From: Levilactobacillus brevis
GTDB taxonomy: Bacteria > Bacillota > Bacilli > Lactobacillales > Lactobacillaceae
Length of the DNA stretch: 64,000 bases
Direction: 5' to 3'
Assembly: GCA_003666485.1 (NCBI GenBank)
Contig: CP032931.1
Location: 496,001 to 560,000 of the forward strand
Each line of letters starts with the position of its first letter. Within the stretch, counting starts at the first letter, position 1. The notes beneath the pieces were generated by a model. The model was not told the DNA's origin and did not search any database. It was given only the letters and a program-made list of their open reading frames with translations. Both the position numbers and the translations under genes were made by a program. Shown one piece after another: positions 669 to 56,142 of the stretch.

Positions 669-707
669 AAAAAGTCTGGACCGCACGCTGGCGATTCAGG
701 CTTTTTT
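669..707. terminator. bidirectional intrinsic terminator
   Basis: An A-rich arm (AAAAAGTCTGGACCGC) pairs with a downstream arm ending in CTTTTTT. It serves the DUF1129 gene on the plus strand and, read on the other strand, could end the LCP transcript, which would then include the repeat at 748-800. Confidence 0.75.
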
Positions 708-747
708 GGCGTGAACTGAGATTACGCGGGCGATTAAGCCAGTTAGG

Positions 748-800
748 CCCGTCCGCCCACAGCGCCCCGACCCATATTTGACGAACGGCAGGCGGCCAGC
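748..800 (+). repeat. dispersed intergenic repeat, partial copy A (3' part)
   Basis: It carries the 3' half of the repeat family: a CCCGTCCGCCCAC block, then CCCATATTTG, then ACGGCAGGCGGCCAGC. The same blocks recur in order at 17.6, 20.3, 24.0 and 36.2 kb. It lies between the stop of the LCP gene and the terminator at 669-707, in antisense orientation to that gene. Confidence 0.75.
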
Positions 801-17619: not shown

Positions 17620-17668
17620 CCGCCGTCCACCGCGTTCCAGCTCATATTTGGCGAACGGTAGGTGGCAT
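17620..17668 (+). repeat. dispersed intergenic repeat, partial copy B (3' part)
   Basis: It contains CCGTCCACCGCGTTCCAGC, CATATTTGGCG and ACGGTAGGTGGC in the family order. It lies between the stop of the small secreted gene and the terminator at 17727, in sense orientation. Confidence 0.7.
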
Positions 17669-17805: not shown

Positions 17806-18417
17806 CTACAGGAACCGTAATAATTGGGCAATCGTGCCGTTATCCAAGATGATAAACAGTCCCAGCCCAATGTAGATGGCCGAAATCACCCAGCGGTTGT
17901 AGCGCTCGATGAATTCGCCGATGCGGGGGAGGCAGGAAATTTTCTGTGCGCTAAAGACCAACAGATAAATCATGATGAAAAATGTCAGTAGCGTGGCCGC
18001 CAGTTGGGCGCGGTCGAGCGTCACGAAGTATGGGACGAATAGCCCCAGGTTATCGGCCCCGCAGCTGCCAATCGTGACGATGGCGACGGTCTGCGTCAAT
18101 TTGCTCAGGCCCTTGGTGTTCAGCCGCGATTCCGCGCGCTCTTCCCCCGTATCCGCCACGAACCAGACGCGAATCCCGAAGTAGATGGGAATCAGCCCCA
18201 GCAAGCCCAGGAGCCATTTCTCAGGCACGTAATGCAAGACGAAAGCAAAGAACAGACTCACTGCAATCAGCGTCAGTGACCCCAGGTATTGTCCCAGATA
18301 AATGTCACGAATCTGCCGTTTGTCCGTCACTCGCGCAAAGTAAATCAGCAAGATGACGAGTAAATCCACGGCGGTGGCGGTATATAGCATGATGGCGGTC
18401 AGGATGGTCTGCAACAT
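17806..18417 (-). CDS. CadD-family cadmium resistance transporter
   Basis: The protein (203 residues) has about five or six membrane segments. Motifs match the Cad family: an N-terminal AVDLLVILLIYFAR, YLGQYLGSL, a middle LLGLIPIYFGIR, and TIGSCGADNLGLFVPYF. Members export or sequester Cd2+ or related cations. I moved the start to the ATG at 18417, eight bases after AGGAG; the longer frame would begin directly on the ribosome site. No metal-responsive regulator is adjacent. Confidence 0.82.
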   Translation of the reverse strand: MLQTILTAIMLYTATAVDLLVILLIYFARVTDKRQIRDIYLGQYLGSLTLIAVSLFFAFVLHYVPEKWLLGLLGLIPIYFGIRVWFVADTGEERAESRLNTKGLSKLTQTVAIVTIGSCGADNLGLFVPYFVTLDRAQLAATLLTFFIMIYLLVFSAQKISCLPRIGEFIERYNRWVISAIYIGLGLFIILDNGTIAQLLRFL

Positions 18418-18500
18418 GGGGGGCACTCCTATCTGTAGTGAAAGCTCTTACAATTGCAGTGTAGCACACTTGTCGCCTGGATTGGAAACGAATTTTGGCC

Positions 18501-18531
18501 AAAATAAAAAGCCTCAGCGTCAGCCAAGGCT
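18501..18531 (-). terminator. terminator of the DUF2929 gene
   Basis: Read on the minus strand, AGCCT and AGGCT form a short stem followed by TTTTTATTTT. Confidence 0.65.
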
Positions 18532-18558
18532 CGGTCTATCGATCATGCTTAACGTGAA

Positions 18559-18768
18559 TTATTTTTCACTGGAAGCTTGGTCGTCACGGCTAAGTAGCGT
18601 GATCCCGTTGACCGCGATCACAGCGACAACTGCCATCCAGATCCCAATTTTCATGGGTTCCCAAGTCATTTGTTCCAACGTACCACCGATGTAACCCATA
18701 ACTTCGCCGAAGATAACGGACCAAAAGATCACGACTAAATTAGATTCAAGCCACTTCACACGTGTCAC
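18559..18768 (-). CDS. small membrane protein, DUF2929-like
   Basis: The 69-residue protein has two hydrophobic segments (NLVVIFWSVIFGEVMGYIGG and IGIWMAVVAVIAVNGITLL) and a charged tail. Layout and wording fit the DUF2929 (YjzD-like) proteins of Bacilli. A GAGGTGA ribosome site precedes the ATG. Function unknown. Confidence 0.65.
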   Translation of the reverse strand: MTRVKWLESNLVVIFWSVIFGEVMGYIGGTLEQMTWEPMKIGIWMAVVAVIAVNGITLLSRDDQASSEK

Positions 18769-19002
18769 CTCACAATCGTTATTAGTTTACCACGATTAAC
18801 GGCTGAGCGGGTAGTTAAGTTTTGCTTGGGTCAGATTTTTCTCTTAGGAATGCGTCTGGGTTGCGGGTTGACGTGAATTCAAGTATACTATGCATAACTG
18901 AAAATGAGATGGTTGAAGCGGCTGCTTTCAAGAATGGTGTCTTCCTTGGGTTGGGGGGACCGTTTTTGGCGGGCGCTTTTTTCGTGCAAAGGGAGGCAAC
19001 TT

Positions 19003-20199
19003 GTGGAATTATTAAAAGACTTAACCTTAATCTTATTGGCAACGACCGTGGTCGGCCACTACTGTACGCGAATCGGCATTCCGGCCGTCATTGGCCAACT
19101 GCTGGTAGGGGTGTTGGTGGGGCCTGCATTATTGGGCTGGATCACCTTGTCCCATTCATTGGAGGGCTTTGCGGAAATCGGCGTGATTATTTTAATGTTC
19201 ATTGCCGGTTTGGAAAGTGACCTACAACTGTTGAAACGCTACTTGAAACCGAGCGTGTTGGTGGCCCTCATGGGGGTGCTGATCCCCATGATTGGGACCT
19301 ACGCGGTGGGGATGCTGTACAACTTGGGCGTGACGGAAAGCCTGTTTATCAGTGTGATCTTTGCCGCAACCTCGGTCTCCATTTCCGTGGAAGTCCTGAA
19401 GGAAATGAACGCGTTGAACAGCCAGGAAGGGACCACCATCTTGGGGGCGGCCGTGGTCGATGACGTGTTGGCCGTGATTATTTTAAGTGTCTTGGTCAGC
19501 ACTACCGGTACAGCGGTCGGTGAAAGTGCCGCGCAGTCCAGCAGCCTGTTGTTGACGACGATTGAACAGGTCATTTACTTCGCCGCCATCTACTTTGTGG
19601 TTCGCTGGTTGGCGCCTTACATGGCCAAAATCGGCGAGCGGCTCATGATTCCGATGGGACCGACGCTGATGGCCATCATTCTGTGTTTCGGGATGGCTTA
19701 CGTGGCCGAATTGGTGGGCTTAAGCGACGTGGTTGGTGCCTTCTTTGCCGGTATCGCCATTTCCCAAACATCGGCCCGCTCAACGGTCGATCGGCACATC
19801 GAACCCGTGGGTTATGCGCTGTTCATTCCCGTTTTCTTCGTCAGCATCGGGTTGAACATGGACTTCAACGGCCTGGGCAAACAACTCGGCTTTATCGTCG
19901 TCTTAACGATTGTCGCCGTCCTGACCAAGTTAGTGGGGGCCGGCAGTGGGGCCAAACTCGCTGGCTTCAGCTGGGGTAGCGCCACGGCGGTCGGCGCTGG
20001 GATGGTCTCCCGGGGCGAAATGGCGTTGATCATTGCGCAAATCGGGTACCAGGCCAAGCTGATGTCGCCGGTGCGCTACTCCGCCATCGTCGCCGCCATC
20101 ATTGTAGCCACGCTCCTGGCGCCATTCCTGTTGCGGTGGACCATGGACCGCGTGCACCAGCATGACGTGGATCGGTCAAAGATTCGGCCGGCTGAGTGA
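19003..20199 (+). CDS. napA: CPA2-family Na+/H+ antiporter (NapA-like)
   Basis: The protein (398 residues) has about 12 membrane segments. The unwound-helix region and the paired aspartates of electrogenic CPA2 antiporters are visible in GAAVVDDVLAVIIL, with ATSVSISVEVLKEM just before. It would extrude Na+ in exchange for H+. I chose GTG at 19003 (TTG at 19000 is possible) because AAAGGGAGG lies nine bases upstream; the 33 codons before it are basic and unlike the family. There is no cytosolic TrkA/NAD domain, so it is not KefB-like. Confidence 0.85.
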   Translation: MELLKDLTLILLATTVVGHYCTRIGIPAVIGQLLVGVLVGPALLGWITLSHSLEGFAEIGVIILMFIAGLESDLQLLKRYLKPSVLVALMGVLIPMIGTYAVGMLYNLGVTESLFISVIFAATSVSISVEVLKEMNALNSQEGTTILGAAVVDDVLAVIILSVLVSTTGTAVGESAAQSSSLLLTTIEQVIYFAAIYFVVRWLAPYMAKIGERLMIPMGPTLMAIILCFGMAYVAELVGLSDVVGAFFAGIAISQTSARSTVDRHIEPVGYALFIPVFFVSIGLNMDFNGLGKQLGFIVVLTIVAVLTKLVGAGSGAKLAGFSWGSATAVGAGMVSRGEMALIIAQIGYQAKLMSPVRYSAIVAAIIVATLLAPFLLRWTMDRVHQHDVDRSKIRPAE

Positions 20200-20274
20200 G
20201 TAAATTTGGTTGTGGCTGATTGCTAAAATTAGTGAGATCAGGCGTTTGTTTGCGCACATTTCGACTGTGAGGCC

Positions 20275-20390
20275 ATTTTGAGACGCGACCTTCGGCTCAA
20301 AGGCGAGGCGGCGAGACCGCACCTTGGCTCGACCCGTCCGCCCACAGCGACCCGACCCATATTTGGCGGACGGTAGGCGGCCAGTCTCCG
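20275..20390 (+). repeat. dispersed intergenic repeat, copy C (lacks the 5' arm)
   Basis: It shares TTGAGACGCGACC and TTCGGCTCAAAGGCGAGG, CGAGACCG, TTGGCTCGACC, CCGTCCGCCCAC, CCCATATTTGGCGGACGG and TAGGCGGCCAG with copies D and F, in the same order. It lies between the napA stop and the terminator at 20440, in sense orientation. Confidence 0.8.
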
Positions 20391-23223: not shown

Positions 23224-23565
23224 GAATACCCCTCCGTTAATCAATCAAAAATCATGGATTTAATGTTTCCAGACGGCGTTGGCGGTCGGCTAGTCGTCAC
23301 GCACTAGCATGATTGTGGACCGTAGTGGTTAGTCTCCCCAATAGTCGTTGGACACAACGAACTTACCCCAAGCATCTGTCTCTATAAGAATACCATAGCA
23401 AGTTGCCTTGATAAAAGTCTACCGCAAATTGCTGATAGTTCCGTGAGGGAGACGTTAAACTTCGCAAAAACTTAGCCTTTGGTAAGGCCAATAACTTAAG
23501 GTTCTGTTATTGTTAATGGTGTAGGGTATAATTTTACTTACCCGTGATGTGGTAAACTTTAGCCA

Positions 23566-23718
23566 GCACTGGTGAAAACTGGTGGGGGGCGCCCCGAGCC
23601 AAAGACCGGTCTCGGTGCTTGCTTTGAGCCAGAAAGTCGCTGTCTCAAAGTCACCAATTTACCAGCCAAGACCGCTGCTAAATTCCCCGGCTGAGCCTAG
23701 TTTCGCGCCACTCTCGGC
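23566..23718 (-). repeat. dispersed intergenic repeat, copy G (inverted, diverged)
   Basis: Read on the minus strand it shows GCCGAGAGTGGCG, GGCTCAGCCG, CTTTGAG with CTCAAAG around a 15-base loop, CGAGACCGGTCTTTGGCTCG, and a degenerate right arm, in the order of copies D and F. It is about 160 bases upstream of copy D, in opposite orientation. Confidence 0.65.
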
Positions 23719-23874
23719 TGACCGTAGTGAGCTGACAATGCAACTAGTTATAATTGTTACGTTAGCTGTTTATACGTTCCGGCTTCAACTGGGCATTTGA
23801 AAAGGTTGACACCAAGTGCACAAACGATAGGAAAATAGTTTGCATGAATCTGTGTTGGTCATGACCGCTACAGT

Positions 23875-24065
23875 ACCGAGAGTCCGTCAAATCTGAGCTC
23901 AGCCGTGGGAGTTACCTTAGCGGCGGGGTTATGCCGCTTAGGTAACTGGCGTCTTTGAGACGTGAATTTCGGCTCAAAGGCGAGGTGTCGAGACCGTTTC
24001 ATCAGGCTCGCCCCGTCCGCCCACCGCGTTCCAGCTCAGGTTTGACGGACGGTAAGGCGGCCAGC
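23875..24065 (+). repeat. dispersed intergenic repeat, full copy D
   Basis: Outer arms 23884-23899 (CCGTCAAATCTGAGCT) and 24033-24048 pair along all 16 positions with one G-U. Inside are GTTACCT/AGGTAAC (23911-23917 with 23940-23946) and CTTTGAG/CTCAAAG hairpins. It begins with CCGAGAGT and ends with GGTAAGGCGGCCAGC. It lies 70 bases before the response regulator start. Confidence 0.85.
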
Positions 24066-24136: not shown

Positions 24137-24829
24137 TTGGGTACTACTGCGAAAGTATTAGTTGTTGAAGATGAAAAGGAATTGGCCGCTGATATCGTGG
24201 AATTGATCAAGCCAATCTGTGAAACCACGACGGCCTATGATGGCGAGCAGGGGGAATTTCTCGCGAGCCAGGGCGTATTTGACGCCATTATCCTCGACCT
24301 GATGTTGCCGGGTGAGAGTGGGCTGGACCTGCTGTTGCACATCCGGAACAAAGGTGTGAAGACCCCCGTCTTGATTTTGACGGCGAAAGATACGATTGCC
24401 GATAAGTTGCGGGGCTTCAATGATGGTGCCGATGACTATGTCACCAAGCCGTTCCACCGCGAAGAATTGTTGGCCCGTATGAAGGCGTTATTGAAGCGGA
24501 CAGGCCATTTGAACAGTAGCGATGTCATTACCCTCGGTCAGTTGGAAATCAACACCAGCAAGCATCTGGCGACCTTTAACGGCGAGCCACTGACCTTGAA
24601 GGGCCGCGAGTTTGACTTGCTGGCTTATTTGGTCGCCAATCCTGGGACCATCATTACCAAGGAACAGATCTTCAATCGCTTGTGGGGCTTTGATTCCGAG
24701 ACCAGTCTGTCCGTGGTCGAGGTCTACATGAGCAATTTACGCAAAGAATTAAAGAACGCCGGCAGCGACCTGTCGTTACGGACCATCCGCAATGCGGGGT
24801 ACATCGTGGAGGCCCCCGATGAGCAATAA
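24137..24829 (+). CDS. OmpR/PhoB-family response regulator (CiaR-like)
   Basis: The 230-residue protein has a receiver domain with the acidic pair E11/D12, phospho-acceptor D54 (IILDLMLPG), T82 and K104 (DYVTKPF). A C-terminal winged helix follows (LKGREFDLLAYLVANPG, WGFDSETSLSVVEVYMSNLRKEL, RTIRNAGYIV). Start is TTG, eight bases after AAGGAGG. Resemblance to streptococcal CiaR is by eye, and cell-envelope stress control is inferred. The histidine kinase gene overlaps its end by eleven bases. Confidence 0.92.
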   Translation: MGTTAKVLVVEDEKELAADIVELIKPICETTTAYDGEQGEFLASQGVFDAIILDLMLPGESGLDLLLHIRNKGVKTPVLILTAKDTIADKLRGFNDGADDYVTKPFHREELLARMKALLKRTGHLNSSDVITLGQLEINTSKHLATFNGEPLTLKGREFDLLAYLVANPGTIITKEQIFNRLWGFDSETSLSVVEVYMSNLRKELKNAGSDLSLRTIRNAGYIVEAPDEQ

Positions 24830-26205: not shown

Positions 26206-26499
26206 GTGTTGTGGACGGATTGCAGGGTAAAAAATCTATCTCAACTTGTAACTTGGCGGGATCTTTTTCAAGGAGGCCGATTTTCTAAAAGGCTAAAATT
26301 ACGGCCAAGCAAACGTCCGCGGTTAAACAATATTTAGTGCCACGCTTGGCAATGAAACGAGTGACGAGTAAATCCGAAAAAGCACGGCTGTTGATGTGAA
26401 CATTGTTATCGCATTAGTGTCAATCGTTGAAATATAGACATCTTGCCAGAAATGACTAGTCTGCCGGAGGAGGCCAGGGGTGTAGCCAGCTGTGTCGGC

Positions 26500-26692
26500 G
26501 GTGTTGGCTGAGGTTTTTTCTCAGCCTACAGCGTGGGGCGACTTGGGAGACTGGCGGTCTTTGCCAGGCTTCCAAGCGAGGTGGAAGCCCATGCTTGGGC
26601 TGGAGCCGTCCCCCATAGCAGACGGGACCCCTGGCAGCCGCAGGCACTGGCACGTCGGTTGCTAGATTTGACGCCACGGTAGGCGGACCAGA
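26500..26692 (+). repeat. diverged relative of the dispersed repeat (E), highly structured
   Basis: It contains perfect hairpins GGCTGAG/CTCAGCC, GGCTTCCA/TGGAAGCC, AGCCCA/TGGGCT and CCGTC/GACGG in sequence. Phrases ACTGGCGGTCTTTG, AAGCGAGG, CTTGGGCTGGAGCCGTC and the tail ATTTGACG then ACGGTAGGCGGACCAG echo the order of copies D and F, but the outer left arm is not found. No gene is seen in the gap 26163-26805. Confidence 0.5.
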
Positions 26693-33378: not shown

Positions 33379-34350
33379 ATGACAAATAGAATTTGTGATA
33401 TTTTAGGTATCGAAAAGCCCATTATCCAAGGCCCTTTACTGTGGTTAACGGACGCCAAGCTGGTCGCCGCCGTCAGTAATGCTGGTGGCCTGGGGATGCT
33501 AGGTTTTAACGCTGGTCAGACGGAACCGACGAAGTCAGTCACGGAAACCATGGACCGGATGCGCCGCGAGATTCGCAAGACCAAGGCGTTGACGACCAAA
33601 CCATTTGGCCTCAACTTTGGGCCTACCGAGGATTGGCGCAACGATGCCTTCACCGAACCAACGCTACAATTGCTCATCGACGAGCACATCCCCGTCGTCA
33701 GCTACGTCGGGCCGGTGATTCCCGAACTATTTACTAAGCTACATGAAAATGACATTAAGATTGTTTACCGCTACATCACCCCCACCATTGAAAACGCACG
33801 TGAGGCGGAGGCTAATGGTGCCGATATCATTGTCGCTACTGGTTTTGACGAGGGTGGTACGGTCCCCGAACGGACGATTGGGACGCTGTCGATTGTGCCA
33901 ATGATTGCCGATGCCGTGGACGTCCCCGTCATGGCAGCCGGGGGAATCACCGACGCGCGGACGGCCAAGGCGGTGATGGATTTAGGCGCCGAGGGTGTGT
34001 ACTGTGGGACTGCCTTTCTGGCCAGCGAAGAATCACGGCTAGCCGACAACATCAAACGGGCCATGCTCACAGCCAACGCCGAGGACCTCTTGATGTACCG
34101 GACGTTGCCTGCTTTCTACCGGTCCTTGCCGGGTGAAGTGCCCAATCATCTAGTCGAACTCGACCAACAGGGAGCCACTAAGGAAGCCATTTTCACGGCA
34201 GGTAACCGGTATGACGGGATGCGCCAGGGGATGCTGTTTGGCGACCTCAGCAAGGGTTTTGCCTCATTCGGCTTGGGTATCTCCAACATTCACGCCATCG
34301 AGCCAGTCCAAACGATTGTGGACCGCTTGGCTGAAGGTGTTGTCGTTTAA
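33379..34350 (+). CDS. nitronate monooxygenase-like FMN enzyme
   Basis: The 323-residue protein is a TIM-barrel flavoenzyme of the nitronate monooxygenase/FabK superfamily. It shows KPIIQGPLLWLTDAKLVAAVSNAGGLG at the start, then GADIIVATGFDEGGT, the FMN-phosphate loop PVMAAGGITDARTAKAVMDLGAEGV and CGTAFLASEES. These enzymes oxidise alkyl nitronates with O2; a FabK-type enoyl-ACP reductase role is less likely without fatty-acid neighbours. AGGAGG precedes the ATG. Confidence 0.85.
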   Translation: MTNRICDILGIEKPIIQGPLLWLTDAKLVAAVSNAGGLGMLGFNAGQTEPTKSVTETMDRMRREIRKTKALTTKPFGLNFGPTEDWRNDAFTEPTLQLLIDEHIPVVSYVGPVIPELFTKLHENDIKIVYRYITPTIENAREAEANGADIIVATGFDEGGTVPERTIGTLSIVPMIADAVDVPVMAAGGITDARTAKAVMDLGAEGVYCGTAFLASEESRLADNIKRAMLTANAEDLLMYRTLPAFYRSLPGEVPNHLVELDQQGATKEAIFTAGNRYDGMRQGMLFGDLSKGFASFGLGISNIHAIEPVQTIVDRLAEGVVV

Positions 34351-34375
34351 AATTTGAAATGATTTGTCACAAAGA

Positions 34376-34408
34376 AAAACGCCTACCGCAATTTGGTAGA
34401 CGTTTTTT
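34376..34408. terminator. terminator between convergent genes
   Basis: AAAACG-CTACC pairs with GGTAG-CGTTTT around one mismatch, followed by T's. Confidence 0.7.
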
Positions 34409-34413
34409 GTGAA

Positions 34414-34851
34414 TTAAAAATCTTTCGGTAAGTTGGTGCGCTGCTGTTCCTTGGTGCGAACCAAAGGCGCCTCGTCCTGCCAGTAGGTCAGCCACTCACC
34501 ACTGGTGGTCAAGCTTTCGAGTTCCAGTTGTTCGGGCACTAACAAGTCCTGTTCCAACCGGTTCTTGAAGGTCGAGATGAGCTGTTGAATGACGCCAAGA
34601 TTTTCCGCCAAGTCGGGGCCGCCTAAGCTGTTTAGCTGCATGGCGAATTGCGTACGAACGGCCGCTTCAATGTCGCGGAGCTTGCGTTCATTAGCCCGGG
34701 CCAGCTTGGGTTGGTTGTGCACGTCAAACGCGACGGCCGGGGTCACGCCGACAAATTGGGCGTTGATCTTGGGGGTGTCGATGCCGTAAGGGGAGGCGTC
34801 GCCGTTGCCGAAGACGTCGAATTCCTGTAGGATGGTGAGAACTTCTGCCAT
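34414..34851 (-). CDS. conserved-looking hypothetical protein
   Basis: The 145-residue protein is soluble, acidic and mostly helical after residue 50. It has no signal peptide, no membrane segment and no motif I recognise; a proline-poor N-terminal part (FDVFGNGDASPYGIDTPKINAQFVGVTP) precedes a helical region ending in EQQRTNLPKDF. AAGGAGC precedes the ATG and a terminator follows, so it looks like a real single gene. Confidence 0.6.
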   Translation of the reverse strand: MAEVLTILQEFDVFGNGDASPYGIDTPKINAQFVGVTPAVAFDVHNQPKLARANERKLRDIEAAVRTQFAMQLNSLGGPDLAENLGVIQQLISTFKNRLEQDLLVPEQLELESLTTSGEWLTYWQDEAPLVRTKEQQRTNLPKDF

Positions 34852-34992
34852 GATTTAAATTGCTCCTTCGTTTTTGCGTATTGGCCCTAGTTTACGGCAT
34901 AGAAAAACCCACGTCAAACGGTACTGCGTAATAGATCTGACTGCATTCAGGGATTAACTCAAAATGGAAAAGCAAAAGGGTTAGGATGTAAA

Positions 34993-35211
34993 TTACTCAA
35001 CCTCACGCCAATAAACGTCAGACCATTCTTCAGCCATGTTTTTTGAGCCGGGGGCTTGTGTGTATGGATTTTTCATTTTAGGGACTAAAGTGAAAGACTT
35101 TCCGTCTGCAGAAGGGATTAGTAACCAGTGTTGACCTTTTTTAAAGCAATTATCTTTCGGTAAACTCAGTGCTAAGGAACCACCGTGGCCTATGGTTTTT
35201 ACTTTCATCAT
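34993..35211 (-). CDS. MazE/AbrB-type antitoxin-like protein, no toxin partner
   Basis: The 72-residue protein begins with a swapped-hairpin AbrB-like DNA-binding fold (MKVKTIGHGGSLALSLPKD then GQHWLLIPSADGKSFTLVPK), as in MazE/PemI antitoxins. A C-terminal tail with acidic and aromatic residues (MAEEWSDVYWREVE) looks like a toxin-binding segment. No MazF/PemK gene follows (34852-34992 is empty) or precedes it. AAGGTGG precedes the start. Confidence 0.7.
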   Translation of the reverse strand: MMKVKTIGHGGSLALSLPKDNCFKKGQHWLLIPSADGKSFTLVPKMKNPYTQAPGSKNMAEEWSDVYWREVE

Positions 35212-35329
35212 GGTAAGCCACCTTTTTTAACATAGTGTAACACCCATTAAACCAATTTATGTGCCTATTGACTGGGAAGCAGTTTACGATACTTGCTGTG
35301 CTACCACAATTATGGAATTTAAACTACAA

Positions 35330-35372
35330 AAATCCCGCCCCTAACCAACAAACGTGATTAAGAGTGGGATAG
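35330..35372 (-). terminator. possible terminator downstream of rpsN
   Basis: On the minus strand ATCCCACTCTTAA and TTAGGGGCGGGAT form an imperfect stem followed by TTTTTG. It is about 110 bases after the rpsN stop. Confidence 0.45.
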
Positions 35373-35483
35373 ATAACTGATGTTTTTAAAACGTAGTAAT
35401 CGCGCTGTGGCTCGATTCAGTAACTAGCCTGTGCCAACGCGTTTTTCGTGAGCGATGGGCAGTCAGAACTACGGATAATGAAA

Positions 35484-35753
35484 TTACCAGCTAGCCTTAC
35501 GCACGCCAGGAATCTGGCCTTTATGAGCCAGCTCACGGAAGTTCAGCCGTGAAAGCCCGAACTGGCGCATGTAGGCGTGGGGCCGACCATCCAAATGATC
35601 CCGGTGGTGCATCCGAGTGGGAGACGCGTCACGAGGTAACAGGGCCAAGGCCGCGTAGTCGCCGGCAGCCTTCAGTTCTGCTCGTCGTTCCGCGTAACGC
35701 TCAACGGTCGCTTCGATTCGTTTTGCTTTTGCAATCTTTGACTTCTTTGCCAT
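35484..35753 (-). CDS. rpsN: 30S ribosomal protein S14, zinc-independent (C-minus) form
   Basis: The 89-residue protein is S14: [43 protein letters not shown] is typical. It has no Cys, so it lacks the zinc ribbon of the short C-plus S14 that normally sits in the main ribosomal operon. Such paralogues replace the zinc form when zinc is scarce. It lies alone, outside any ribosomal cluster, and a Zur-box-like palindrome precedes it. AAAGGAG lies 12 bases before the ATG. Confidence 0.93.
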
Positions 35754-35779
35754 GAATCAGTGATACTCCTTTATATTTA

Positions 35780-35802
35780 GAATAGTAATAATTACGTTTT
35801 AC
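35780..35802 (-). promoter_or_regulatory. Zur-box-like palindrome upstream of rpsN
   Basis: GTAATAATTAC (35785-35795) is a perfect odd palindrome, flanked as GAATA and GTTTTA. It matches the remembered Firmicutes Zur consensus (AAATCGTAATNATTACGATTT) at nearly all positions. It lies 27 bases before the rpsN start. The regulator itself is not in this window. Confidence 0.7.
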
Positions 35803-35861
35803 TAATCTATCATAGGGTCAAGTTGCCTGTCAACGAAAACGACCTGAGAAGGCGTAGAAAA

Positions 35862-35916
35862 TAGCCACCGCCAATTCCGATTGAGTTTTAGGGAGTTGAC
35901 GGTGGCTATTAGACTA
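35862..35916 (-). terminator. hairpin, probable minus-strand terminator of the galM transcript
   Basis: AATAGCCACCG pairs perfectly with CGGTGGCTATT over a long partly paired loop; on the minus strand it is followed by TTTTC. It would place repeat copy F in the galM 3' untranslated region. Confidence 0.55.
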
Positions 35917-36033
35917 ATGATTAGGATTAAGTTTGGTCAGTAGGTACGCATTCGAATTCGGCTACCAGACCAGTCGCAGTTGAGAGCACGACCTGATGGA
36001 CTAAGCCAATCCGCCAATCGACCACGAATCGTA

Positions 36034-36221
36034 GCCGAGAGTGGCGGCAAATATGGGCTCAGCCGTGGGAGTTCCCTTAGCGGCGTGGTTCATGGCGCTT
36101 AGGGAACTGGCGTCTTTGAGACGCGATTTTCGGCTCAAAGCGAGGACGAGACCGTTCTTTGGCTCGACCGGTCCACCCACCGCGTTCCAGCCCATATTTG
36201 CCGCCGCGGCAGGCGGCCAGC
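36034..36221 (+). repeat. dispersed intergenic repeat, full copy F
   Basis: Outer arms 36043-36059 (GGCGGCAAATATGGGCT) and 36189-36205 are perfectly complementary over 17 bases. Inside are GTTCCCT/AGGGAAC (36071-36077 with 36101-36107) and CTTTGAG/CTCAAAG hairpins. It begins with GCCGAGAGTG and ends with GGCAGGCGGCCAGC. It lies between galM and rpsN. Confidence 0.9.
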
Positions 36222-36235
36222 TAAATACCACTTTA

Positions 36236-37267
36236 TTAGTAAGTCAGATCATAAGTGATTTCGTATTGCTTGGTCTCGCCGGGGGCCAGCTTGACGTCGC
36301 CGAATTCAGGGAAGTTCTGGGAGTCCGGTAAGGTTTGGGCTTCCAGAGCGACCCCCATGTAAGGTTGGCCGGCACCGGTCGCTAATTTCATATTCGACGT
36401 GAAGGAGTTGGCGGTGAAGACGACCAAGGCGTTGCGCTTGGACTTGATGGTCACTGCGCGGCCAGATTGTGGGTCGGACAGCTTGGCAATCGTGTCGTCG
36501 GCACCGGGGGTCACGTGGTAGACGTCATCGAAGCCCTTTTCGGGGATGTCTTGTAAACCACGGATGGCCTTGCCTAGGTTTTGCCCGTCAGCGAAGTCAT
36601 AAGGCGTACCGGCATTGGCGACCATTTGACCCGTCGGCAATTTTTCGCTGTCTAAGTCCAAATGTTCTTGGCTGTTGATCTGCAGCGTTTGCCCGGCAAT
36701 CAGTTGGTCGTCGCCGACGTTGAAGTAGACGTGCAGCGTTGGGTTAAACAGCGTCAACGCGGTACTGTTCCCTTCGAAGGTCAGGGTGATGCGGTCGTGA
36801 TTGTCGAGCGTGTAAATCATTCTGGCAGTCAGGTCGCCAGGGAAGGAGTCATCCGCGCCCTTGAAGGTGTGAGTCAAGATGATCCGCGCCTTGTTAGGGT
36901 CAGTCGTGTCCAGGTCGCCCGCCCAGTTGACCGTGTTGAACCCATGCGGGCCACCATGCAGGGTGTTTTGGCCTTCGTTAGGATCAACGTGGATCGTTTG
37001 CCCGTCGAGATCAAACGTCCCCCGGGTGATGCGACCGGCAGTTCGGCCAATTCCCATGCAAACGTAGAACGGATTATCTAAATAATCGGCCATCTTGTGG
37101 TAAGATAGCACCAGATTCTTATCACCCTTGTCTGTCGGTACCGTTAACTGATGTAAAGTGGCACCCCAGCTCAAGATAGCAAGCTTCACACCATGATCAT
37201 TTTCGATTGTATATTCTGTGACGGCTTCGTTTTGGTAAGTATCCCAATGTTTCGTAGCAGTTTGCAT
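36236..37267 (-). CDS. galM: aldose 1-epimerase (mutarotase)
   Basis: The 343-residue protein is a GalM beta-sandwich enzyme that interconverts alpha and beta anomers of glucose, galactose or maltose. Motifs: KLAILSWGATLHQLTVP, GIGRTAGRITRG, NTLHGGPHGFN (catalytic His), LTLFNPTLHVYFNVG (second His) and a late YMGVALEAQTLPDSQNFP containing the catalytic Glu. GAGGA precedes the ATG. It probably serves the maltose phosphorylase pathway a few kilobases away. Confidence 0.93.
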   Translation of the reverse strand: MQTATKHWDTYQNEAVTEYTIENDHGVKLAILSWGATLHQLTVPTDKGDKNLVLSYHKMADYLDNPFYVCMGIGRTAGRITRGTFDLDGQTIHVDPNEGQNTLHGGPHGFNTVNWAGDLDTTDPNKARIILTHTFKGADDSFPGDLTARMIYTLDNHDRITLTFEGNSTALTLFNPTLHVYFNVGDDQLIAGQTLQINSQEHLDLDSEKLPTGQMVANAGTPYDFADGQNLGKAIRGLQDIPEKGFDDVYHVTPGADDTIAKLSDPQSGRAVTIKSKRNALVVFTANSFTSNMKLATGAGQPYMGVALEAQTLPDSQNFPEFGDVKLAPGETKQYEITYDLTY

Positions 37268-37291
37268 AGCAAGTCCTCGATTCTAATTTTC

Positions 37292-37344
37292 TGAAGCGGT
37301 TTCATTTTAACCCTATCATATATTTTTATCCGGATAATTGTCAA
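37292..37344 (-). promoter_or_regulatory. galM promoter with downstream cre/LacI-type operator
   Basis: On the minus strand -35 TTGACA (37339-37344) and -10 TATGAT (37315-37320) are 18 bases apart. Between -10 and the start, TGAAACCGCTTCA (37292-37304) is a LacI/CcpA-type dyad with a good left half. Its position downstream of -10 suggests roadblock repression. Confidence 0.65.
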
Positions 37345-53907: not shown

Positions 53908-56142
53908 GTGTTCAATTTAAATGATGAGAAGCGGCATTATAAGATGTACAAAAAAGGAAAACAGTGGCTGTTGGCGGGAATCGTGACGGCGACACTGACG
54001 TGCGGGGGTGTGGTGACGGCATCTGCAGCCACGGAGACGCATGATGATGACCCTGCGTCAGCCGAGAGCGTTGGCACCAGTGAGCCAGACCAGGTGGCCA
54101 CGCTGCGTAACACCGCGGCCCCGGCGACAAAAGAAACGGCGGTTCAACCAGTTGACGAGCCGGCGGACAATGTGACAGAAGAGGCGGAACTGCCGACCGA
54201 AGAATCAGGAACGCTTGAAGCCGACCCCGTTGATGATGACCAGCCGGGACCGGCAACTGAGCCAGTTAATACAGCTAAACCGGATGAGGCGGAGAAACTT
54301 GAGACGCCGGCGGACAGTCAACGCAATCAGCCGGCCCCTCAAGCGCCAACGCTAGACCGGAAAGAAGCCGTTGAGAATGATAAAAAACAGGTGACACCAG
54401 CGCCAGCAGTCGCCACGCCTGTTGCATTTACGACCGGTTTGGCAGCGGTTCCAGCGGCGCCAGTCGTCGACAATTTTATCGACCAATGGTTGCCAAACCA
54501 GACATTACAAAATGAAGTATTATCGGAGTTACAGCAGTTGGGAACCCAAGCCGCCAATGGCCGTCACTGGGACAGCGTGGCTGACATTACCCAAGACGAC
54601 ATGGCGTTAGTCACCTCGTTGTCGGTTTCCGGTGGGGGTAGTTTCCCCGATACCTACATTGATGGCAAGACGCCGTTTTCATTAAAGGGGCTGGAGTATG
54701 CCGTTAACCTGAAAAGAATTCATTTCTCAGCAGCACAAAATACGTCGACTATGGTCTTCGGCGACATTGTGGATATTAGTCCGTTAGCGGGATTACGAAA
54801 GCTGGAATACGTAGACTTATCGGGGAATCGCATCAGCGACATCACTCCGCTGGCTGGCTTGACGAACATTAAGGAACTTTCCCTGGCTTACAACGGGATC
54901 ACCGACTTCTCCGTGTTGGCAGGGCGGCAGTTTGACCGACTCACCACGGATTGGCAGTATATCATCTTGCCCACGATACGGGTGAATAGCCAGACACGGA
55001 CGGCAGATATTTCGCAGTTGTATGTGAATAGTGATGGCCAGGTGGTTACCTGGAGTTCGGGGAATAGCTTTACGATGCCGTACCGAATGCTTAGTAATGG
55101 ACAGAACGTTAAGAAACTCTTTTACCGTGGTGTGACTTATGACAAAAATTTAAACCCACGTAAAAATGCTGATGGTAGTCTGACATTTACCGGCATTTAC
55201 GACCAGGAACCGGGGCCGACGACCACTAGCTCAAGCTATACCGTGGAACCACAAAAAAACAAATATTTCTTAATTGGCCAACTGAGTAGAAAAGATGAGG
55301 CTACTAATGCCAGTATTGTTATGGCCGCAATCTTCCAACCCTATGAAATTGCCGACGAGGCCGCAACCGTGACCGTCCATTATCAAGATGAGGCGGGAAA
55401 GACCTTGCGTGATGATGAGGTGCTACCAACGGGGCTAGTAGGCGATAGCTACGAAACGCATGCTCAGGAGATTACGGGCTACCAGCTGAAAGTGGTGCCA
55501 GAAAATGCCACGGGTCTTTATGGCGTGGATCCCATCGATGTAGTCTACGTTTATGAAAAAACAGCGCCGGTTCAACCGCCAGTCGTGACCCCCGTCGCGG
55601 AAATTAAAGTGACGGTCCATTATCAATTGGCGGATGGCACACCGGTCGCGGGCGACACGAGCTTCACGGGGAAGACCGGAGAAGCGTATACGACAACGCC
55701 ACTGGACTTGAGTGACCAGGGTTGGGAACTGATCGGCACTCCAGCAAATGCGAGTGGGACGCTGGGTGAGGCGGATATTGCGGTGGTCTACATTTACCAG
55801 GCCAAGGATGCCCCGGGCGAAGAGGGGGCGTCAGGCGATGAGCTGGCCGATGATCCCGTGGACATGACCAACGATGACGCTGTCAACGAGTCCGGTATGG
55901 GCGCGGACATTGCTATCAATCGGCCGCGGAAGCAATCCCGGCCGCAAGTCACCTCGGTTGCAAAACCGGCCCGGACTCGGGTCCAACCAGCTGTTAAGCA
56001 GTTGACACAGAAACAGAACGAATCAGAACAAGCAACGCTGCCGCAGACCGATGAAGCCCAACTCTCATCGAAAGTAGGTTGGCTAGCGCTGGCGACGTTG
56101 GTAGCCGGCCTGGGTGCGGGCTTACTGCGAAAGTGGCATTAA
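53908..56142 (+). CDS. LRR-MucBP surface protein with LPQTD anchor (SP2)
   Basis: The 744-residue protein has a KxYKxGKxW signal peptide (HYKMYKKGKQWLLAGIVTATL, residues about 11-32). An acidic Glu/Thr/Pro linker runs to about 170. The cap IDQWLPNQTLQNEVL is followed by internalin-like LRRs (DIVDISPLAGLRKLEYVDLS, RISDITPLAGLTNIKELSL), a beta domain, and two MucBP modules (VTVHYQDEAGKTL, VTVHYQLADGTPV). LPQTD begins at 711, then a hydrophobic segment and RKWH. GTG start lies eight bases after AAGGAGG. Confidence 0.88.
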   Translation: MFNLNDEKRHYKMYKKGKQWLLAGIVTATLTCGGVVTASAATETHDDDPASAESVGTSEPDQVATLRNTAAPATKETAVQPVDEPADNVTEEAELPTEESGTLEADPVDDDQPGPATEPVNTAKPDEAEKLETPADSQRNQPAPQAPTLDRKEAVENDKKQVTPAPAVATPVAFTTGLAAVPAAPVVDNFIDQWLPNQTLQNEVLSELQQLGTQAANGRHWDSVADITQDDMALVTSLSVSGGGSFPDTYIDGKTPFSLKGLEYAVNLKRIHFSAAQNTSTMVFGDIVDISPLAGLRKLEYVDLSGNRISDITPLAGLTNIKELSLAYNGITDFSVLAGRQFDRLTTDWQYIILPTIRVNSQTRTADISQLYVNSDGQVVTWSSGNSFTMPYRMLSNGQNVKKLFYRGVTYDKNLNPRKNADGSLTFTGIYDQEPGPTTTSSSYTVEPQKNKYFLIGQLSRKDEATNASIVMAAIFQPYEIADEAATVTVHYQDEAGKTLRDDEVLPTGLVGDSYETHAQEITGYQLKVVPENATGLYGVDPIDVVYVYEKTAPVQPPVVTPVAEIKVTVHYQLADGTPVAGDTSFTGKTGEAYTTTPLDLSDQGWELIGTPANASGTLGEADIAVVYIYQAKDAPGEEGASGDELADDPVDMTNDDAVNESGMGADIAINRPRKQSRPQVTSVAKPARTRVQPAVKQLTQKQNESEQATLPQTDEAQLSSKVGWLALATLVAGLGAGLLRKWH

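Follow-up and report, generated by a model that had tools for sequence, protein, structure and literature searches.

A dispersed, covarying intergenic repeat of Levilactobacillus belongs to a MITE-like mobile unit

The repeat in the window and in its own genome

The window (the whole stretch of 64,000 nucleotides analysed here) comes from a Levilactobacillus contig. Among its genes are those of a cadmium transporter (17806-18426), a Na/H exchanger (18904-20199) and a response regulator (24137-24829), together with a neighbouring histidine kinase (Pfam HisKA/HATPase_c) whose nearest named records, at 94% and 92% protein identity, are from L. angrenensis and L. suantsaiihabitans, respectively. 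The product of 53908-56142 is a large surface protein in which a KxYKxGKxW signal is combined with leucine-rich repeats and MucBP domains; the large ORFs that follow it contain repeated DNA, which suggests a cluster of paralogues.

The window also contains several copies of a repeat (Table 1) that the original prediction, made from the letters of the window, had described as about 190 nt long. A profile search with nhmmer recovered all the copies it had named, the one placed at 748 being the match at 704-798. What had been missed is a second, homologous type of domain and the larger mobile unit described below. We refer to the two types as A (about 190 nt) and B (about 186 nt). Copy F of type A has neither a recognised partner nor a recognised terminal inverted repeat (TIR) in its surroundings. 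Copy D forms the right half of a divergent pair and lies upstream of the response-regulator gene; its left-hand partner is a diverged minus-strand domain, the spacer between them being about 156 nt. The pair is possibly part of the 5' leader of the response-regulator and histidine-kinase genes. The outer arms of copy F are perfectly complementary, as predicted, and those of copy D (23884-23899 and 24033-24048), which had been called complementary too, pair except at one T-G wobble. The inner hairpin indeed reads GTTCCCT/AGGGAAC in F (36071 and 36101) and GTTACCT/AGGTAAC in D (23911 and 23940).

Table 1. Repeat domains of the window, with a block of genes that is rearranged in relatives.
Feature	Position	Strand	Support or remark
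Type A domain, copy F	36031-36219	+	nhmmer 185 bits; model R1 173 bits
Copy F outer-stem arms	36043-36059 / 36189-36205		17 nt, exact complement
Type A domain, copy D	23876-24062	+	nhmmer 174 bits; R1 164 bits at 23873-24061
Diverged type A domain	23580-23719	-	nhmmer 52 bits; R1 84 bits at 23538-23720
Type B domain, homologue of A with the same architecture	26462-26646	+	176 bits with the B profile and 47 with the A profile; 35-copy own-genome alignment
Weak candidate for the remnant of a minus-strand partner, to the left of the B copy	26267-26339	-	nhmmer E 0.002, 12.8 bits
Type A 3' part, model positions 78-190	20271-20383	+	nhmmer 98.6 bits
Type A 3' part, model positions 97-190	704-798	+	nhmmer 38.3 bits
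Type A 3' end, model positions 141-188	17620-17666	+	nhmmer 34.0 bits
Rearranged block	window 17812-20202; L061 2854-5244; L062 2400-4977		

The repeat is abundant in the rest of the genome. The 18-nt signature of type A (CAGCCGTGGGAGTTNCCT), allowing up to 2 mismatches, was found 184 times (96 forward and 88 reverse), against 0+0 for the reversed pattern used as control. BLAST of copy F against its own genome gave at least 41 matches, 83-100% identical, among those listed (the best 40 of 285 candidates scored). The observation is confirmed, and what was observed is larger than first described.

Predicted fold and covariation

Each domain, whether A or B, is predicted to fold into an outer stem that closes three hairpins. 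On the plus strand copy F has a folding energy of -102.2 kcal/mol, which is 6.5 SD below that of dinucleotide shuffles; on the minus strand it has -91.1 kcal/mol (5.3 SD below). RNAalifold predicted 52 pairs from 49 A copies (from the own genome and other Levilactobacillus species) and again 52 from 46 B copies, of which 40 and 41, respectively, have double changes that keep the pair. When the A structure was fixed, 95.1% of the cells were paired, as against 79.0% in shuffles, and covariation scored 0.471, compared to 0.169 in shuffles and at most 0.114 when the structure was slid along the alignment. None of 500 shuffles scored as high on any of the five structure measures used for A.

Because relatedness among the copies inflates the count of double changes, we have used a tree-aware covariation test. 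This is a home-made, R-scape-like test and not R-scape itself: an APC-corrected G statistic is compared with 40 alignments in which the inferred substitutions are replayed on a tree made with FastTree. In the A alignment, significance was reached by 10 of 14,365 column pairs, all 10 belonging to the 52 pairs of the structure (with another seed 9 were significant, all within the structure). For B, the figures were 10 of 15,753 column pairs, 10 out of 10 within the structure. The original prediction had claimed, from paired changes in two copies, that structure is being kept, and had proposed covariation as the check; the claim holds for both types, every significant pair falling inside the predicted stems. 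That the fold is kept in many lactobacilli suggests that the folded strand does something.

The strand that folds

The two strands are not equivalent. The consensus fold of A has -59.8 kcal/mol on the plus and -39.0 on the minus strand, and that of B -79.8 and -58.0 kcal/mol. Among the cells of the predicted pairs, G-U outnumbers A-C by 239 to 30 in the 116 own A copies and by 80 to 15 in the 35 B copies; once the pairs with more than 20% G-U are removed, the ratios are 134:29 (A) and 56:14 (B). Counted by pairs, those with more G-U than A-C compare with the opposite as 29:2 (A) and 23:6 (B), the sign-test p values of 5e-7 and 0.002 being indicative, as copies are not independent. Mutation in double-stranded DNA would give both mismatches alike, so that the asymmetry argues for a single strand. 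It points to a folded form that would be one defined single strand, RNA or, less likely, ssDNA. Of the two options in the original prediction, RNA or cruciform DNA, the single strand is thus favoured (with ssDNA added to RNA) and the cruciform disfavoured, since there both strands would count alike.

These counts bear on a quite different explanation, in which the covariation would be mainly mutational, produced by copying from arm to arm in imperfect palindromes or by gene conversion, with no selection on the fold. Blocks of double changes accompanied by few loop changes are what such copying would leave, and they do occur (loci L063 and L066 at 14746 have 8 double changes, with 3 of 84 loop positions differing). 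However, a roughly fourfold excess of G-U over A-C is unlike palindrome correction, the significant pairs are spread over several separate helices, and there are unpaired positions, such as the loop AGACC...GGCT of the third hairpin, that are invariant in the 49 copies. We consider a mainly mutational origin very unlikely.

Type B and the spread across Lactobacillaceae

The left flanks of many A copies bear the second element, B (186 nt; 35 copies of the own genome were aligned). We have treated A and B as one superfamily because iterated profiles, built on 28 named Levilactobacillus loci, recover each other's members. These loci (up to 21 kb) contain 146 merged elements, 87 B-like and 59 A-like, present in 25 of the 28, with no elements in the loci of L. 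brevis, L. acidifarinae and L. suantsaii. The A signature was counted 137 times in L. suantsaiihabitans, 118 in L. angrenensis and 122 in L. wangkuiensis (controls 1, 0 and 1); in L. brevis it had 0 matches (control 1).

A scan of the genome and its relatives with a covariance model, as proposed with the original prediction, placed the family beyond its own genus. The core model, whose E-values are rough, had matches in 70 of 251 genomes of the Lactobacillaceae, which represent 12 of 40 genera, the own genome and genus included. In a draw at the level of the order (295 genomes), 13 had matches to the core model, one of them outside the family and with weak scores. Among 52 loci fetched from outside Levilactobacillus, the A profile matched none, and neither did the core model, which was run on 26 of these 52.

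Two-domain layout and genomic position

To describe the arrangement of the elements we have used a 216-kb stretch of the own genome and a 187-kb contig of L. suantsaiihabitans, with home-made gene calls. The 46 and 43 element matches found there, some of which are pieces of one element, never overlap a called gene. In every gap that holds both orientations (28 of 28, 15 in the own genome and 13 in L. suantsaiihabitans) every minus-strand match stands to the left of every plus-strand one, whatever the directions of the neighbouring genes. The same order was found in other genera, where 12 of 20 fetched loci, from five genera, carry both orientations and 12 of 12 have minus left of plus (one of these had already been visible as a pair before selection). 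The pair of copy D in the window shows this layout as well. Where both elements are full-length, 11 of 18 spacers between minus and plus measure 72-101 nt. Promoters were predicted in 7 and 2 of the 18 spacers, by direction, versus 2.9 in shuffles, which is no clear excess, the control upstream regions giving 13 of 28 versus 8.6. Upstream of both domains of the window pair, at 23508-23540, there is a promoter-like TTGTTA followed by TATAAT, in a stretch that is conserved in two relatives. A '-...+' pair 1.9 kb apart in genome G254 was rejected as one unit, being two units around an ordinary gene.

The cores make up 3.17% of the own stretch and 3.27% of the L. suantsaiihabitans contig, or 12.5% and 13.0% of the non-coding DNA. 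Their position is biased: among gaps of at least 100 nt, the convergent ones hold elements most often (17 of 39), followed by the tandem (29 of 143) and the divergent ones (4 of 45), and the median distance to gene 3' ends is 75.5 and 98 nt, while to 5' ends it is 211.5 and 240 nt. Both the preference for convergent gaps and the proximity to 3' ends would be expected if the units were terminators or 3'-end protectors of the neighbouring genes, in the manner of REP/BIME. The same bias would nevertheless arise from selection against insertion into promoters alone, and the fold is more elaborate than such a role requires. A T-run follows the hairpin in just 1 of the 116 A copies and in 0 of the 35 B copies, on which ground the intrinsic terminator was rejected. 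Overall, a terminating or protecting role appears unlikely.

Inverted ends, target duplications and empty sites

A comparison of 93 orthologous gaps between the own genome and L. suantsaiihabitans gave 4 occupied in the own genome only, 5 in the relative only, 10 in both and 74 in neither. Alignment of filled and empty sites revealed the true ends, which are the TIRs CTRAAGGTTGMAA. We have then collected pairs of these ends from the fetched loci of Levilactobacillus and other genera (non-nested, 250-4000 nt apart, up to 2 mismatches per end). Among the 30 pairs, 7 have perfect 8-bp target duplications (L163, L190, L218, L219, L255, L258 and L240), while 0.31 were expected after shuffling; 3 have a duplication with one mismatch (0.42 expected) and the other 20 have two or more mismatches. 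In L219:10056-10682 the duplicated target is ATGATTTA, and L240 is a short unit of another genus that has both the TIR and a perfect duplication. Examples with two domains measure 605-749 nt, and shorter ones with one complete domain (271-440 nt) also have duplications. No unit in the two contigs described above contains a called gene.

The repeat hence belongs to a MITE-like mobile unit, by its ends, its duplications, its short length, its many copies and its want of a transposase. The original prediction had opposed kept structure to a transposable MITE with target duplications and no covariation; a transposable unit with duplications is what we found, with strong covariation as well. No recognisable TIRs surround the copies in the window, which would make them old insertions or copies that have lost their ends, and none that were convincing were found at 12 two-domain loci of other genera. 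The ends of the core itself were tried as insertion ends and rejected, as there is no excess of direct duplications 2-12 nt long in the 116 A and 35 B copies.

The searches for a parent transposase yielded none with matching ends. The 67 TIR 14-mers listed included 0 inverted pairs 0.9-4 kb apart. None of the inspected copies of IS200 (5 of 5), IS256 (8 of 20) and ISL3 (6 of 11) had these ends, and the search for a parent transposase found no IS6 family member. The own genome has 5 Y1 transposases, with no link to the repeat seen. Distant blastn of the L163 unit gave no match that would indicate a plasmid or phage origin, and neither did megablast of window positions 33379-37300 against plasmids.

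The L163 unit (629-1018), 390 nt long, is bounded by exact inverted ends and by a perfect 8-bp duplication. It contains one domain, the left end of which resembles the right end of a minus copy. It looks like a two-domain unit whose interior would have been deleted between repeated stem arms. In L220:9395-10111 the A domain is interrupted by another palindromic repeat (GTGCGCCAACAGGCAACTGGTTCCGC...), and a similar sequence is found to the right of the unit at position 79527 of the L. suantsaiihabitans contig. The flanks of L191:396-1010 repeat 13 of 14 bases (ctggcgtaacgtaa / ctggcgtaacctaa), beyond the usual 8-bp duplication.

Conservation at fixed sites

A way to see what happens to the fold after insertion is to compare single elements of closely related species at orthologous sites. 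In 39 of 44 such comparisons, some of which share a species and one of which (L069:2362 with L088:14549) is probably not orthologous, similarity is higher in the core than on average in its 90-nt flanks. Another 12 rows between the own genome and relatives, all favourable, were set aside, several of them matching one element to multiple places. Over all 44 comparisons, 60 single changes keep the pair and 71 break it, 74 double changes keep it and 22 break it, and 328 of 2908 loop positions differ. When loop divergence is limited to 15% (31 comparisons), the single changes are 40 between Watson-Crick (WC) and G-U, 21 between WC and A-C, 16 between WC and other states and 7 among non-standard states; the double changes are 20 from WC to WC and 10 others, and 144 of 2960 stem positions changed versus 140 of 2191 in loops. 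Stems do break at orthologous sites, yet changes that wobble or compensate are favoured. Where copy F stands, compensatory changes distinguish the own genome from L. suantsaiihabitans, both in the outer stem and in the first hairpin; in L. angrenensis this site is occupied by a B element.

The terminal arms behave differently from the core. For that of the recent own units, the own genome gave 26 matches (85-100% identical) and the 34 other Levilactobacillus genomes searched gave a single weak one, so that arms are species-specific while the core reaches 12 of the 40 genera. We read these patterns as probable constraint in place, to which gene conversion or palindrome correction may contribute.

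The persistence of the fold beyond fast-changing arms in a lineage could also be understood if it mattered as plus-strand ssDNA during transposition or replication, recognised by the transposase or a host protein, the resident copies being functionless and decaying. The domains are located at both unit ends, as recognition sites would be, and since ssDNA also tolerates G-T pairs, the strand asymmetry is in keeping with it. On the other hand, TIRs with 8-bp duplications suggest a transposase that works on double-stranded ends, copies with no recognisable TIRs, like F, retain an intact fold, and at fixed sites the cores remain more similar than their flanks. We regard this explanation as rather unlikely.

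Relation to known families

Bacterial MITEs, such as RUP of pneumococcus, the Correia elements and bcr1 of Bacillus cereus, are short, non-coding, multicopy and intergenic, have inverted ends and a target duplication and can be folded. The unit described here shares all these properties. It differs from those three in having two large, homologous, multibranched domains facing outward in each two-domain unit, and also in the tree-aware covariation, the strand asymmetry and the presence in 12 of 40 sampled genera. It is MITE-like by its ends, and the paired multibranched domains and the wide reach set it apart from them. REP/BIME and REPIN repeats are inverted intergenic pairs of folding repeats, associated with RAYT (Y1) transposases. 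The likeness lies in the inverted pairs of folding repeats between genes, and the own A copies often start with GTAG. In contrast to REPs, which are palindromes of 20-40 bp (as given in the abstract of PMC3733652), the domains here are about 186-190 nt long and are parts of units that carry TIRs and 8-bp duplications.

The mobile or repeat candidates of PMC11109978 are also covarying, structured multicopy motifs with an orientation independent of genes; the example presented there is a single long stem, unlike the domains described here, and the main text names no lactobacillus. The stem-loop families of PMC2267715, an article that also names RUP, are likewise dispersed intergenic repeats predicted to fold. 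In the available part of its text, the genome table has L. johnsonii as the sole Lactobacillus, and there is no description of this family. Searches against Rfam 15 gave no match at any of the limits used, which were gathering scores for the window, E up to 1 for the surroundings of copy F and E up to 0.5 for four unit loci. A literature search, with thin coverage of subscription journals, found no description of this repeat family. Both agree with the original prediction, in which the repeat was not recognised as a known family.

A proposed role for the folded domains

The reading that we prefer, with a probability of roughly 0.6, is that the repeat is half of a non-autonomous transposon with domains that fold as a single strand, the folded RNA perhaps acting in cis. 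The two-domain unit is ordered as TIR CTRAAGGTTGMAA, arm, minus-strand domain, spacer (often 70-100 nt), plus-strand domain, arm and TIR, flanked by the 8-bp target duplication (which several units show), and it would be moved by a transposase supplied in trans. Each domain is predicted to fold, single-stranded, into the outer stem and its three hairpins. Since the domains face outward, a transcript crossing the unit from either side would carry exactly one domain in the folding orientation, the downstream one. The folded RNA might then act in cis on the crossing transcript, for instance as an element for its processing or stability that would render insertions tolerable. Of the roles that the folded RNA could have, we favour this cis action on the transcripts that cross the unit, though tentatively, as taken by itself it is less likely than not. 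Equally doubtful, if attractive, is the wider proposal of a class of mobile elements, present in much of the Lactobacillaceae, whose defining cargo, an outward pair of RNA domains, would act in cis on hundreds of transcripts and be selected in place. If true, this would amount to a genome-wide layer of RNA regulation spread by a transposon.

A multibranched fold with covariation, retained at fixed sites, would represent a large unannotated part of genomes of food use, and the alignments and the model permit its immediate annotation. Why a transposon should maintain an RNA-like structure becomes directly testable.

Gene-order inversions

L. angrenensis has the block formed by the cadmium-transporter and Na/H exchanger genes (Table 1) in inverted orientation. 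In L. suantsaiihabitans the order of these genes is swapped and the first alone is inverted. The breakpoints of the block fall in gaps that bear elements, which suggests that recombination between inverted copies of the element caused the inversion. The element may drive local inversions of gene order.
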